Below the pieces are notes generated by a model that was given only the letters and a program-made list of their open reading frames with translations, was not told where the DNA came from and ran no database searches. 64,000 nt of DNA from Nitzschia sp. pyKryTriq1 (lineage: Eukaryota; Bacillariophyta; Bacillariophyceae; Bacillariales; Bacillariaceae), in NCBI GenBank assembly GCA_956465555.1, contig OY101122.1, forward strand, positions 1,065,001-1,129,000, given 5' to 3'. Positions 52,184 to 58,643 of the stretch are shown one piece after another. The first letter of the stretch is position 1, and every line of letters begins with the position of its first letter. The position numbers were made by a program, and so were the translations under genes.

Positions 52184-53504
52184 CTATGAACTAGTTTGCG
52201 TTTTCATTTGTTCCCATACACTTGGTGCCATCACAGCCTCGCTCTTTACCCATGGGTGATCCATAACTTCGTCCAACGAGTACCGTTTCTTCGGGTCGGC
52301 CTGCAACATTGTCTCTAGCAAGACAACCAGCTCGTCACTCAACACAATCTCGTCCCTCTTTGTTGAATTCACAAATTTTTTAACGCAATCGGTAACATTT
52401 CCTTTCACGCAAAGCTCCACAAACGTCTTGTCTTCCTGCACGGGCGCCATAAATAGGGCCTCGCTACTCACTACCATGCTGTAAAGCATCAAGCCACTAG
52501 CCCACAGATCCGCTGCAAATCCATCCCACCCGACAGTCAGACTACCAAAATATTCTGGAGCCACGAATTGAGAGCAGCTACCACCAGGAATAGGGGCGGT
52601 TTTGTCTTCATCAATTGGATCATTCTTGTTGAAACGCATGCTCCAGTCCAGTCGATCGATTGCTATGTGGTCACCGTGCAACTTCACGGCATCCGGTGAC
52701 AAGTTCCGATGACACAAACCAGCGTTCTGAAGTGATTTCAATCCCTTCGAATCATCATAAAGTATGGCATATTAGTTTTTCCTCAATGTTGAAGCTTATC
52801 AAGCTTTCGGACCTTACCTTCAAAATTTGTTTGAAAAAAAATCGTGCAACCGGTTCCTTCAGGTTCCCTTCGTTCATACAGTATTGCATTAGCGTACCAT
52901 CGGGATAATACGGTAAGACTGCGTACAAAAAAGATGGACATGCCCCCAGAAGATCAGCACCAACAACATGCGCTTCACTTGTATTGTTGGCTTGAGCTAT
53001 CATTTGAAGCGCACTTAAGTTGTCCAAAGGACTTTGCACTTCAGGGTTGTCGTTTTTCATGTCAAGAACGCTGCTGTGCATTATCAGAATTCTTACGAGA
53101 AAAGGTTCACCAGCTTCGTCCAAATCCAATTCCCAGGCTTGGGAAGAGTCTTTAAAGTCTGGTTGGCTATGCCGCCGTAACTTGTATCCCAGTCGAATGT
53201 CCCCATACGAAGGCTTGTCGATCTTCCGCTGCAACCAGAAGGCCTGTGGGGGCTCTCCGTCTGGCTCGAAAACAATGATATTTCCAGCCATTGTCTTTTC
53301 TCTTTTCAAATGCGTCGGCCCGGCTAAGGATACCGCTTTGCTATCAGGTGAAGATATGTCATCAGACGACCCGTTTCCGGCAATGAAGGATGCTCTCCCG
53401 TTCCATGATTCCTTGACAGCATTTCTAGCCTCTGGAATATGCACGAAGCCAGTGCAACGCCTCGCTGTCAAAAGCTGTGGGGGATCGAATGGGATGCTAG
53501 TCAT
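52184..53504 (-). CDS. Protein kinase-fold protein, predicted pseudokinase
   Basis: Exons 52818-53504 and 52184-52744 with a 73-nt intron (GTAAGG..GAAG) give 415 residues. The splice joins FFKQILK to GLKSLQNAGLCHRNLSPDAV, the usual kinase helix E and catalytic loop. The fold is clear: that loop, the APE block FVAPEYF, WDGFAADLWASGLMLYSMVV (helix F) and MLQADPKKRYSLDEVMDHPW (helix I). Yet the HRD Asp is Asn (N243), the DFG position reads LDW (261-263), and the N-lobe VAIK strand appears as FLVRILIMH without an evident Lys. No glycine-rich loop is seen. Loss of all these points to a catalytically dead scaffold or allosteric kinase-like protein. The first 60 residues are disordered and Ser-rich. 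Diatom-specific kinase-like families of this kind are possible; the partner is unknown. Confidence 0.8.
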
Positions 53505-54420: not shown

Positions 54421-56529
54421 CTAAGCTATCTCGAGTGGCCATCCAACTTCTTTGAGTTTGGAAGTCAGTTTTCCTTCTTCGTACAGTCTTTTGGTTTGCA
54501 CAAAACCGCCAAAGAACTCTCCACCAATATAAAGGTTGGGAACGCTACGTCTCCCGTCTCTAGTCATCATATGCTGGCGTATATCTTGAGAAATCGGTTT
54601 GTAGTCGTCGAGATCAATAATGTGAGGTGTCTTGGCGCCAATGTTTCGCAGCAATTCCAGTGTCCGTTTGCATTCTGGGCACCACGCAAGGGAGAACATC
54701 ACAACTGGATGCTTTTGAATAATTTGTTCAATACATGACTGCTCGGCCAGGTTACACGATTCGCCGTTTCCTTCTGTTTCCTCGGCATTGGTCGATGGCT
54801 TTTCCAGGGCTCCCGCTTCAATCAGGAGCGGAACCAACGCACCCTTAGCTTGCAAGCCAGCAGTTTCGTCTCCTCCACCGATGCTTTTTCCACCCACAAA
54901 GACATTCGGCACCGTCCTGCGTTTTGTCATTGATTTAAGCACTTCTTGTACTTCCCGTGTTTGGGGGTTACTTGTAAGGTCCACGATGAATGGGTCCGGA
55001 ACACCAGCTGCGCTCAGTGCTTCGAGGGCTTTACGACAGTAGGGACACCAGGACTTGGAGAATACTACAACTGGGTGACTGTTCACAATGCGAGTGATGC
55101 AATCCTCTTTTGTTAGATCACAGTTTCTGTCAGAGTCTGCGAGGATTCGCTCTTCTTCTTTCTTCACTTCCGGTTGTGGGTTTGTTTTTGTTCCTAACAC
55201 CTTTGGAGCGTGAGGAACGGCAACGTGCTTGTGCACTCCGTGCGTTTCTCTGAGCCACCGTTCAGCGTCAATGGCAGCCTGTGCCCCAGCTGCGGATGCA
55301 GTGATGGCCTGTTTGTAGATATTGTCCGATACTTCGCCGACCGCAAAAATGCCAGAGACTGACGTTTGCGTCGCGCCTTCCAGTTGGACAAAACCCTCAA
55401 GATCCAGATGGATGCTGTTCCTCAACCAGTCAGTATTTGGGGTCGCACCAATCATGACGAAGGCACCATCTATGGATAGAACTTGTTCGTCGTTCTTATT
55501 GTTCGTGTTCTGTATCCGCACTCCTCTAAGCTGATGTTCTGAATCAAGTTCCCACTGCTCGACTGCATAGGGCAACAGAATTTGAATATTGACAGTGCTT
55601 CGCGCCACATCCACTGCTGCCTGGTTTTTGCCAGAAAGCTGCGTCCGTCTATGTACCAAATACACTTGTTTGGCATAGCGTGCCAACAAAATGGCAGCAT
55701 CCATCGCTGAATCGCCACCTCCCACGACCAAGACCGTCTTATCCAGGTACAGATGACCGTCACATATCGCGCAGTTGTGCAATGTCTTCCCCCATAGCAA
55801 ATCTTCCTTGGGTAGACCCAAGTGACGAGGCGTGGCGCCACTTGCTACAATAACAGACCAAGCATGAATTTGCTTTTCTCGAGAATTCACTGAAGTAGTG
55901 GTCAGAGTGAAGAGTCCTGTCTCCTGAACAACGGGTGTTCTTTGAAGTTCAGTTGCCAACACTCCAGGCGTTGCGAATTTGGCGCCAAAATGAAGAGCCT
56001 GTTGTTTGGTGGCTTTCAGCCAAGCAGGACCATTTCCTTCTGTATAGCTAGGAAAATTGTCTAGATGTTGCGTTTCGGACAAAAGACCTGTCTCCGACCC
56101 CAGAACGACAACATCGAGGCCAGCCCGAGCCCCGAACAACGCGGCAGTTAACCCGGCCGGACCGGAACCAGCTATCACGATATCGTGGATAGGTCCATTC
56201 ACACCCAGCGCTGCGTAGTCCACAGCGGCTGCATCCAACAACGTCCTACCGCTACGTCGATCTGAAGCAGGTTTATTATGCGAGCCGCGAAATCGAAAAA
56301 ACAATCCGCCTACTAGTCCAGTCAAGACAAGTGAGATGGAGGCAAATATGACAGCCCGTCCCCGCTGCGCTTTGTTACGTGTTGTAAATACCCTTGAAAT
56401 TGATGGTGCCCCTGACGAGCTGTGCAGCGGCAACGTTGTCTGTTTGTCGCTGTTGATGGACCCGTTGCCATGTTGGCTGGTGCCACCTCGGCGACTCCGA
56501 AGAAGTGTCGTCGTACCGGTATGGCTCAT
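54421..56529 (-). CDS. Membrane-anchored thioredoxin reductase fused to two glutaredoxin domains
   Basis: A 702-residue single-exon protein. A cytosolic-looking Ser-rich tail is followed by one hydrophobic segment at about 59-80 (AVIFASISLVLTGLVGGLFF). The low-molecular-weight NADPH-thioredoxin reductase part spans about 115-430: FAD motif IAGSGPAG (119-126), redox pair C253-A-I-C256-D, NADPH motif VVGGGDSA with HRR at 293-295, and the second FAD motif GIFAVGEV, where Glu replaces the usual Asp. Two glutaredoxin domains follow: Grx1 with CPYC at 495-498, TVPNVFVGG and GGGDE; Grx2 with CPEC at 617-620, SVPNLYIGG and EFFGG. Each Grx is preceded by an extra C-x6-C pair (C470/C477 and C592/C599). 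It may shuttle electrons from NADPH through the Cys pairs to the Grx sites. This domain order is unusual. It is neither plant NTRC, which has a thioredoxin domain, nor animal TGR, where Grx is N-terminal on a different reductase class. Confidence 0.9.
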   Translation of the reverse strand: MSHTGTTTLLRSRRGGTSQHGNGSINSDKQTTLPLHSSSGAPSISRVFTTRNKAQRGRAVIFASISLVLTGLVGGLFFRFRGSHNKPASDRRSGRTLLDAAAVDYAALGVNGPIHDIVIAGSGPAGLTAALFGARAGLDVVVLGSETGLLSETQHLDNFPSYTEGNGPAWLKATKQQALHFGAKFATPGVLATELQRTPVVQETGLFTLTTTSVNSREKQIHAWSVIVASGATPRHLGLPKEDLLWGKTLHNCAICDGHLYLDKTVLVVGGGDSAMDAAILLARYAKQVYLVHRRTQLSGKNQAAVDVARSTVNIQILLPYAVEQWELDSEHQLRGVRIQNTNNKNDEQVLSIDGAFVMIGATPNTDWLRNSIHLDLEGFVQLEGATQTSVSGIFAVGEVSDNIYKQAITASAAGAQAAIDAERWLRETHGVHKHVAVPHAPKVLGTKTNPQPEVKKEEERILADSDRNCDLTKEDCITRIVNSHPVVVFSKSWCPYCRKALEALSAAGVPDPFIVDLTSNPQTREVQEVLKSMTKRRTVPNVFVGGKSIGGGDETAGLQAKGALVPLLIEAGALEKPSTNAEETEGNGESCNLAEQSCIEQIIQKHPVVMFSLAWCPECKRTLELLRNIGAKTPHIIDLDDYKPISQDIRQHMMTRDGRRSVPNLYIGGEFFGGFVQTKRLYEEGKLTSKLKEVGWPLEIA

Positions 56530-57219: not shown

Positions 57220-58140
57220 CTAGAAGTCGTCCAGATTATCTGTAAAGTCGTCCATGACCCTTTTGACAACATCAAACATCTTCTTGTTGGACTTGTATGT
57301 TTGCAGAACCTGGCTCGCCCCGTACTTGACAAGCTCCTTGGCTACCAATTCTTCGTGTTCGTCCACATCCTTCTTACCGGTTGCGGCCGATTCTTCCAGG
57401 TATTGGTTCGCCACAGCTACCAATCCAAATTGAGCCCGTACATTGGACGAATCTAGCTCCAAAGATTGTGACATGTGCTTTCGAGCCAAGCTCAAGTTTT
57501 CCAGTCCTCCAATAGTAGCATACACTTCCGCCAAAAGTATGTGCATCTCTGAGTCGAGGGGACTTCCCAGAACAACTTGCTCTAGAGCAAAGGCGGCACC
57601 TTTGAAGTCGCAGAGTGACATTCTCAGTTGGGCCATTTCGTACCACCCACTAACATCCATCATATTCTGGCCCAAGTACTCGTTCAGTGCCGCAATCACT
57701 TTCTCGGGTTCTTGTTTCAAAGCCCGCGCGATGCAGTACTTGCGTTGCAACGCTACTAGATTCGCTGGGTTGTCCTTGAGTAGCGCGTCGTAAATCGCCC
57801 CAGCGCCGTCGTAGTCACCCGCCGCCTCGAGGCATCGTGCCAACAGGCGTCGAAAGCGCACGGAATCCTTCTCCACGCCGTTCTTCCGCAGTTGGTCTAG
57901 GCATTTGTCGGCGACATCATGATTGCCCAGATCGAGAGCTGCCAGACAGATCTGCTCCAAGGCCGCAAGTCGTGTTTCATCGTCACCCATGCCCTTGGAC
58001 AAATCCTTGCCGAGGAGAATTTGCCCGTGCTCAAACACCAGCTTTGGTTCCCGCAATTCATGTGCTCTTACATATCGCAAAACTCCTAAATGATCTTTTC
58101 GCGCAACAAGTGTTGGCAGATCGTCACCTGGGCCCATCAT
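57220..58140 (-). CDS. EMC2: EMC2, TPR subunit of the ER membrane complex
   Basis: With the start at ATG 58140 (MMGPGDDLPTLVARKDH) the protein has 306 residues, the usual EMC2 length. An upstream ATG adds 48 Arg/Cys-rich residues with no family likeness. TPR-like repeats fill the protein: RLLARCLEAAGDYDGAGAIY, then DALLKDNPANLVALQRKYCI, then VIAALNEYLGQNMMDVSGWY, then EMAQLRMSLCDFKGAAFALE, and the family hallmark ATIGGLENLSLARKHMSQSL. EMC2 is the soluble cytosolic subunit that organises the EMC insertase for tail-anchored and multipass membrane proteins. The C-terminus is charged (DEHEELVAKELVKYG), with a helix ending in DDFTDNLDDF. No intron is needed. Confidence 0.88.
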   Translation of the reverse strand: MMGPGDDLPTLVARKDHLGVLRYVRAHELREPKLVFEHGQILLGKDLSKGMGDDETRLAALEQICLAALDLGNHDVADKCLDQLRKNGVEKDSVRFRRLLARCLEAAGDYDGAGAIYDALLKDNPANLVALQRKYCIARALKQEPEKVIAALNEYLGQNMMDVSGWYEMAQLRMSLCDFKGAAFALEQVVLGSPLDSEMHILLAEVYATIGGLENLSLARKHMSQSLELDSSNVRAQFGLVAVANQYLEESAATGKKDVDEHEELVAKELVKYGASQVLQTYKSNKKMFDVVKRVMDDFTDNLDDF

Positions 58141-58643
58141 TATGGATTGGGTTTTGCGGGTCTGATTCCTTCTACAGTACCGCTTTTGTGGCGGTGGTCT
58201 TCTGTGACAATGACAAGCTGCAGAGGCTGGTGCGGCTCCTCTATCAGTAGTCAGTACGAGAACTGGTACCTGTAGACTATCCATTATCCATTATCATCGC
58301 CGCCACTCGCGCCGCCGCATCGTCGATTTTGATAGTGAGACGCGCGCTGCAAGATTGTGTGAGATTGGACAAAGGGCAGACTTACAATCCAATGAGTCGT
58401 CGTCGTCACATCTGCAACAATCTATATCTTACTACGTATGCATGCGCAATACCGGTACCGGTACGTAGCAACAGTCACACAAGCACACAAAGATCTGCAA
58501 CGTAACAGAGAGGACAGAAGGACGTCGCGATTCTTCCCAATTCGTGATGACGATAGACGAATCATCGCAACAAAAAGCAGAACCAAAGAAGGTCTTATTC
58601 ACTTTGCCCGGTTGATACCTTTATCCTGAAACTGTCAATCGAA
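58141..58643. promoter_or_regulatory. Divergent promoter region with overlapping TACCGGTA palindromes
   Basis: A 503-bp spacer between divergent genes. Two perfect TACCGGTA palindromes overlap at 58450-58463. The promoter role is inferred from position. Confidence 0.4.

Follow-up and report, generated by a model that had tools for sequence, protein, structure and literature searches.

The gene described here lies on the reverse strand of the window, the whole 64,000-nucleotide stretch analysed (contig OY101122.1, positions 1,065,001 to 1,129,000, of the diatom Nitzschia sp. pyKryTriq1). Its product, P0001, carries in a single chain a basic tail, a membrane segment, a thioredoxin reductase (TrxR) of the low-relative-molecular-mass (low-Mr) type with a CAIC disulfide, a glutaredoxin (Grx) with a CPYC active site and a second Grx with a CPEC active site. 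It is a member of what is apparently a conserved and undescribed diatom family of NADPH-thioredoxin reductase (NTR)-Grx-Grx proteins. In the reading that we prefer, with a probability of about 0.5, the protein would be a membrane-fixed relay that hands electrons from NADPH through flavin adenine dinucleotide (FAD) and the CAIC pair to the first and then the second Grx on the luminal side. We infer the activity, the order of electron transfer, the side of the membrane, residence in the endoplasmic reticulum (ER) and the substrates from features of the sequences: the order of the parts, the NADPH, FAD and CxxC motifs, the five cysteine pairs, the duplication of the Grx unit, the loss of putative glutathione contacts and the recurrence of the membrane segment and tail motifs. 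Throughout, positions refer to the whole stretch and residues to P0001 numbering.

The open frame (54421..56529, reverse strand, as are all parts of the protein given below) starts with ATG and runs uninterrupted for 702 amino acids, the stop codon being included in the coordinates. The start codon is supported by the relatives P0004 and P0006, which open as P0001 does (MSH...LLRSRR), and a chance origin of the architecture is excluded because full-length relatives with the parts in the same order reach E = 0. Among the Pfam profiles, Pyr_redox_2 matched residues 115-415 and Glutaredoxin matched two stretches with 108.6 bits, above its cut-off, while Thioredoxin (PF00085) scored 17.9 bits, below the 23.5 cut-off. 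Among the NCBIfam profiles, TIGR02180 (GRX_euk) matched two stretches with 145.2 bits, above its cut-off of 87.25; TIGR01292 (low-Mr TrxR) matched residues 115-426 with 261.2 bits, below its curated cut-off of 343.45, and TIGR01438 was marginal, at 24.7 bits against a cut-off of 475.85. These matches, together with the open frame and the motifs, confirm what a sequence-only reading of this stretch had proposed, namely an NTR, a CPYC Grx and a CPEC Grx in one frame. The protein contains exactly ten cysteines, which fall into five pairs (253/256, 470/477, 495/498, 592/599 and 617/620) with no other cysteine. An AlphaFold2 (AF2) model of the full-length protein, with a mean predicted local distance difference test score (pLDDT) of 80.3 and a predicted template modelling score (pTM) of 0.65, has a confident NTR fold, two Grx folds and a disordered tail and linker; the linker, residues 432-469 (55123..55236), is partly disordered, with pLDDT below 50 at residues 440-461.

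The reductase domain, with its FAD and NADPH sites, occupies residues 114-431 (55237..56190), where pLDDT is mostly above 90. Its fold matches in the PDB were low-Mr TrxR structures, the top match being 9vv4, titled NTRC (VIA-align covered the NTR domain alone); in the viral structure library, single domains alone were matched. The domain scored 216 bits against the low-Mr TrxR of Mycobacterium smegmatis, at about 40% identity, compared with 143 bits for the Arabidopsis NTR (1vdc) and 150 bits for that of barley (2whd). The earlier description was of a bacterial/plant-type NTR; by bit score the domain is nearer to the bacterial than to the plant enzymes. The FAD GxGxxG, NADPH GGGDS/A, HRR and CxxC motifs are all present and are invariant or nearly so across an alignment of 69 proteins (P0001 and 68 long relatives), the one departure being the change of GD to GE. 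Both cysteines of CAIC (C253/C256, 55762..55773) are kept in 69/69, as are the other catalytic CxxC cysteines and C477, C592 and C599, and C470 is a cysteine in 65/69 as aligned. The HRR motif at residues 293-295 (55645..55653), which we take to be the site for the NADPH 2'-phosphate, keeps R294 in all 69 proteins and R295 in 60. The GE at residues 398-399 (55333..55338, residue 399 being 55333-55335) is presumably the FAD 'GD' motif with its aspartate replaced by glutamate, a replacement that runs through the family (glutamate in 68/69, one glutamine). For comparison we used 115 free-standing NTRs (P0122-P0236), which are bacterial where named and mostly lack an organism name; the motif was found in 101 of the 115, with aspartate in all 101. 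Cysteines beyond the active-site pair average 0.70 per NTR domain in the family versus 1.71 in the free-standing NTRs. The P0001 reductase is best described, from its motifs and scores, as a divergent relative of the low-Mr TrxR and not as the TIGR01292 equivalog.

A protein search with P0001 returned 193 matches, and all family counts are drawn from the 120 that were listed. We took 115 of these as the family set (P0001 and P0003-P0116), leaving aside P0002, a 99% identical copy, and P0117-P0121, which are of other kinds. Recognisable Grx units, 190 in total, were present in 108 of the 115 proteins: one in 28, two in 78 and three in two (P0019 and P0028). The notion of a unique fusion was accordingly rejected, and in place of a single oddity there is a diatom-wide family with one-, two- and three-Grx forms. 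The database search proposed with the sequence-only reading, for NTR domains followed by Grx, had its answer here: all 14 organism-named entries among the matches listed are diatoms (Bacillariophyta), namely Corethron pennatum (by its taxid), Nitzschia inconspicua (3), Cylindrotheca (2), Bacillariaceae sp. (2), Seminavis, Epithemia, Fistulifera, Odontella, Stephanocyclus and Cyclotella. One transcriptome entry, P0103, may fall outside the diatoms. The organism's own genome (40.65 Mb, 20 contigs) holds one full-length match to P0001. That two adjacent genes, an NTR and a Grx, were read as one through an error of gene model or assembly is so improbable that it hardly needs weighing: the P0001 frame is uninterrupted, and the same order of parts recurs in relatives on many contigs and in transcriptome entries. 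Open reading frames from transcriptomes join NTR and Grx in P0015, P0045 and P0063 (two Grx units) and in P0083 and P0107 (one), which speaks against a split into two messenger RNAs for these relatives, the gene in the window itself not being covered. Database entries for family members bear names such as 'thioredoxin reductase' only, and no publication on an NTR-Grx-Grx family was found by title or abstract opening in the open full-text literature; this agrees with the earlier statement that the architecture was not described, although subscription journals lie mostly outside that scope and the search is hence no proof.

The first Grx unit spans residues 470-575 (54805..55122; Pfam stretch 487-550) with its CPYC active site at C495/C498 (55036..55047), and the second spans residues 592-700 (54430..54756) with CPEC at C617/C620 (54670..54681); both active sites were placed by motif and alignment. 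The AF2 model of the tandem (mean pLDDT 91.9, pTM 0.58) matched dithiol Grx structures of plants, algae and animals in the PDB. Each unit opens with an additional cysteine pair, C470-x6-C477 (55099..55122) and C592-x6-C599 (54733..54756), located by cysteine spacing counts. The spacing given earlier, about 18 residues ahead of the active site, applies to the second cysteine of the pair, and the first lies 25 residues before the active-site cysteine. Such a pair precedes the active site in 188 of the 190 family units, as C-x6-C (-25/-18) in 164 and as C-x7-C (-26/-18) in 24; the two remaining units are the middle one of P0019, which has no pair, and the second one of P0061, with cysteines at -28 and -18. 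When Grx alone was used as the query, 36 of the 89 units in the matches P0237-P0327 had the pair, the rest being truncated N-terminally, partial (P0239, P0267, P0276 and P0281) or without it, and among these 89 units none outside the family was seen with both cysteines in place. The pair was likewise absent from the Grx frames read in the organism's own genome wherever the positions were readable. Among 25 short matches no free-standing Grx with the pair stood out as a clear donor; most, with the tail end of an NTR domain or of a different Grx unit attached, resemble fragments of genes. Short Grx matches from sequence assemblies, P0281 and P0286, have a lysine-rich N-terminus, one of them with a lone cysteine at -18. 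The search also returned oomycete Grx sequences from Aphanomyces (P0250 and P0279), in P0250 together with a cyclophilin-type peptidyl-prolyl isomerase domain.

In a tree of 170 Grx domains (116 columns, many forks left open), a branch with support 100/99 separated the family units from 21 other Grx. All CPEC units grouped in a single nested clade of 41 rows (100/98), together with one CPYC, one CAEC and one CPWC unit; CPYC-CPYC pairs represent separate duplications. We used the clade results alone, as the label 'single' was contaminated by a length filter that dropped second Grx units near C-termini. The tree supports an origin of the CPEC unit inside the family by duplication of a Grx unit, and the nested clade and the pair in 188/190 units support the earlier suggestion that the unit was duplicated along with its extra thiols. 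The same extra-pair layout is indeed common to both units, but they are not equivalent, as the CPEC unit lacks the lysine and the aspartate of the CPYC unit. We take the lysine three residues before the active site, the threonine of TVP and the aspartate after GG to be the glutathione-binding residues of dithiol Grx. Among 80 first units, lysine is kept in 79, threonine in 77, GG in 80 and the aspartate in 74, and the first unit of P0001 has the CPYC-type site, the lysine at -3, TVP and GG..D. Among 60 CPEC units, the lysine is found in one and the aspartate in three, P0001 having L614 and V677 at these places; the 24 other non-first units keep the lysine in 21 cases and the aspartate in 12. 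The first unit thus keeps the putative glutathione-binding residues and the CPEC unit has lost them, so that the latter is probably not a glutathione enzyme, although it retains its Pfam Glutaredoxin match and its fold matches. Lysine at -3 is present in all 26 proteins with a single detected non-CPEC unit (traces of another unit are seen in P0074, P0078 and P0113), which makes it likely that the NTR and a CPYC-type Grx form the core and that this Grx is the direct partner of the NTR. The CPEC unit would then likely be a later addition and the terminal step of the chain.

The sequence-only reading had implied an active role for the C-x6-C pairs, with their thiols ferrying electrons between the reductase and the Grx active sites. 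We consider this quite improbable: the pair is present in 188/190 family units and, among the 89 further units read, none with both cysteines was seen outside the family, but such conservation also suits a structural disulfide. In the AF2 models the first cysteine of the pair lies in coil, and the helix that opens the Grx fold has the second in its first turn. The pairs are at least as likely to be structural disulfides as relay thiols, and most likely they are local ones that sit where the first Grx helix begins.

Ahead of the reductase, residues 60-78 (56296..56352) form a hydrophobic 19-mer with a mean Kyte-Doolittle value of 2.29, predicted to be a signal anchor and modelled by AF2 as a helix at residues 62-74 with low confidence. 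The membrane anchor proposed earlier is borne out as a prediction, with a segment N-terminal to the NTR domain, detected by hydropathy, in 80 of the 88 N-termini (of 115 proteins) that passed the filters of a strict recount. In 59 of these 80 the net charge on the N-terminal side of the segment exceeds that on the C-terminal side. A looser count had given a segment in 84/95, with the charge higher in 60, equal in 8 and lower in 16 of the 84, and the recount was made because at least two of the 84 (P0082 and P0111) were FAD-binding stretches. The basic tail, residues 1-59 (56353..56529), is predicted to be cytosolic and contains at residues 11-14 (56488..56499) the di-arginine cluster RSRR, which includes RR, RXR and RXXR and resembles an ER-retention signal. 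Of the related tails that passed filters (70 of 115), 52 have R-x(0-2)-R among their first 16 residues; the mean in 2000 shuffles is 23.2 and the maximum 37, and of 1255 16-mers taken from the interior of these tails 200 contain it. The LPL[HY]-like motif LP[LIMVSTA][HYFT] occurs in 43/70 (shuffle mean 1.21, maximum 6). As precedent, N-terminal RR, RXR or RXXR signals were reported to suffice for retaining type II proteins in the ER of plants without being necessary in the full-length protein (PMC2799409). The tail, the segment and the positive-inside bias together make up, as a prediction, the layout of a type II protein that resides in the ER. Sequons are depleted in the NTR domain, with 103 found against 218.6 expected (0.47) compared with 61 against 89.6 (0.68) in free-standing NTRs, the expected counts being inflated by asparagine runs in some relatives; this fits, weakly, with a luminal site. 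A cleavable plastid presequence is disfavoured, since the hydrophobic stretch starts only at residue 60.

If these assignments hold, NADPH would reduce FAD, FAD would reduce C253/C256, and the resulting dithiol would pass electrons to C495/C498 of the first Grx and from there to C617/C620 of the second. The second Grx could in turn reduce luminal substrates, such as proteins resembling protein disulfide isomerase or the thioredoxin (Trx) h and Grx that are predicted for the ER/periplastid space in Phaeodactylum (PMC2173943); these are possible partners of the NTR-Grx-Grx protein. We tentatively propose, at a little less than even odds, that diatoms have in this single membrane-tethered relay a dedicated NADPH-dependent TrxR/Grx system located in the lumen of the ER or in the plastid envelope space derived from it.

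Two other arrangements of the same parts have to be weighed. The Grx units could be parallel tools: the first would act as a deglutathionylase that depends on glutathione and is regenerated by the NTR, and the CPEC unit would serve in substrate binding or redox sensing, or be reduced by the NTR directly. This would agree with the retention of putative glutathione residues in the first unit and their loss in the CPEC unit, with the separate duplications behind the CPYC-CPYC forms, which show that two units of the same kind occur, and with P0086, where a CPEC unit stands alone. We nevertheless find it unlikely, because C617, C620, C592 and C599 are cysteines in all 69 aligned proteins, which suggests a redox duty, and because a Synechocystis relay is reported to pass through two Grx in series (PMC10295655). 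Somewhat doubtful, too, is the placement of the same relay elsewhere, with the catalytic part facing the cytosol, or at the Golgi or plasma membrane, in the periplastid space or in the mitochondrial intermembrane space. The charge bias is not uniform (21/80 equal or reversed), no luminal NADPH source was identified by a G6PD_C search of the organism's own genome, and diatom redoxins are predicted on ER/periplastid routes too (PMC2173943). Against such a site stand the recurrence in relatives of the N-terminal di-arginine and of the tail motif at a distance from the membrane, the five cysteine pairs without further cysteines in P0001, the extra pair before nearly every Grx unit and the start of the hydrophobic stretch at residue 60, which would be unlike a cleavable signal or a bipartite plastid presequence. 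Should the relay sit elsewhere, its NADPH supply would be less problematic and the enzyme would be a membrane-tethered NTR-Grx system.

Several observations weigh against the luminal relay. The charge bias is reversed in 13 and absent in 8 of the 80 segments, the tails that were counted belong to related proteins and do not represent independent trials, and no KDEL-like sequence was present among the commonest C-termini of the family. No luminal NADPH source was found, an H6PD-type enzyme having been sought in the own genome via G6PD_C only. The economy of cysteines is not family-wide, as further cysteines, one or more, are present in 56 of the 99 relatives counted, most often in the NTR domain. 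A strict NTR-CPYC-CPEC order is contradicted by P0086, which has a CPEC unit only, as does P0051 in its incomplete-looking gene model, and the AF2 model, with its pTM of 0.65 and disordered linker, gave no readable geometry between the domains. The ER can also be reduced by other routes, namely by glutathione and by cytosolic Trx/TrxR through an unknown membrane protein, according to two reviews (PMC9114485 and PMC12781119). Finally, the genome also encodes a Trx-NTR fusion, a divergent NTR, two genes resembling glutathione reductase (GR) and two high-Mr TrxR-like copies.

The GR-like and high-Mr TrxR-like genes, all below curated cut-offs, mean that glutathione reduction does not look to be missing in general. 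The bypass of GR suggested in the sequence-only reading is therefore not evidently needed genome-wide, and a compartment-specific role is likelier. The Trx-NTR fusion (L002 742-2643, forward strand; contig C12, about 1299803-1301704) has an N-terminal Trx-like part with CGPC, recognised by eye, followed by a low-Mr NTR with CATC, an order that is the reverse of that in NTRC. The divergent NTR-like gene (L003 1060-2470, reverse strand; C1, about 235271-236212) has CATC and a change of the NADPH motif GGGDS to GMNLE, and perhaps no longer uses NADPH. The two high-Mr TrxR-like copies (C1:4149298-4150898 and C3:3013724-3015324) have identical scores and carry TGA and TAA inside the C-terminal match, likely the mark of a selenocysteine enzyme and a recent duplication. 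The genome contains 23 Grx-domain matches, two of them in the P0001 gene; L008 (C3) and L009 (C7) are near-identical frames of 354 residues with a Grx domain and a hydrophobic, probably membrane-spanning C-terminal part, and L006 and L011 look similar. Two glucose-6-phosphate dehydrogenase (G6PDH) loci were seen. One is a two-frame gene on C9 with an unassigned N-terminus, the other a fusion with 6-phosphogluconate dehydrogenase (6PGDH) on C15; neither looks H6PD-like or has an ER signal in the frames read. The latter (L026-L028; C15, about 1182943-1184391 and on) is a multi-exon gene in which G6PDH is joined to 6PGDH sequence, the 6PGDH part recognised by eye. In the window, the neighbours of the P0001 gene are a kinase-like gene (52184-52741) and an EMC2-like TPR gene (57220-58284), both on the same strand, with an AAA/STAND-type ATPase further on.

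Disulfide reduction inside the ER is an open question. Two reviews, which draw mostly on mammalian work, state that the ER has no known glutathione or thioredoxin reductases (PMC9114485), and that TrxR has not been identified there and GR is undetectable or minimal, while NADPH is present (PMC12781119). If the luminal placement were true, the NTR-Grx-Grx protein would supply the reducing arm that these reviews report absent, and the question could be put to a direct test in major primary producers through a family that couples an NADPH reductase and glutaredoxins to an ER-type anchor. The family would also offer a ready-made NADPH-to-disulfide module for engineering, and shows how a Grx may duplicate, shed its glutathione site and become a relay step.

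Among known systems, NTRC also joins a low-Mr NTR to a redoxin at its C-terminal end. NTRC has one thioredoxin, is soluble and is plastidial or cyanobacterial, whereas P0001 has two glutaredoxins, a membrane segment and extra cysteine pairs, and no C-terminal thioredoxin domain above the cut-off. TGR, too, unites a reductase with a Grx in a single polypeptide, and the model of the Grx tandem matched TGR entries too. Its Grx is N-terminal and sits on a high-Mr, GR-like TrxR, unlike the low-Mr reductase and C-terminal Grx units of P0001. Yeast Grx6, also among the fold matches of the tandem (3l4n and 5j3r), is monothiol by entry title, is a membrane protein of the secretory route and is not fused to a reductase. 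Three proteins from our search, P0118, P0119 and P0121, which are probably bacterial, share a Grx and a low-Mr NTR in one chain, but their Grx is N-terminal and single and their NTR has CATC; with CPYC at residue 12 there is no room for the cysteine pair. Plant alpha-glucosidase I offers a parallel for the tail: this ER protein of type II topology bears di-arginine signals at its N-terminus (PMC2799409). It is not fused to a reductase. The Synechocystis NTR-Grx1-Grx2-Fed7 pathway is reported likewise to have an NTR, a first and a second Grx in series (PMC10295655), but as separate proteins and with no fusion, unlike P0001; which redoxins the Synechocystis NTR reduces is called controversial in another article (PMC3816324). 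What appears new in the diatom proteins is a variant of the NTR-redoxin fusions, combined with a tail anatomy like that of an ER-type protein.

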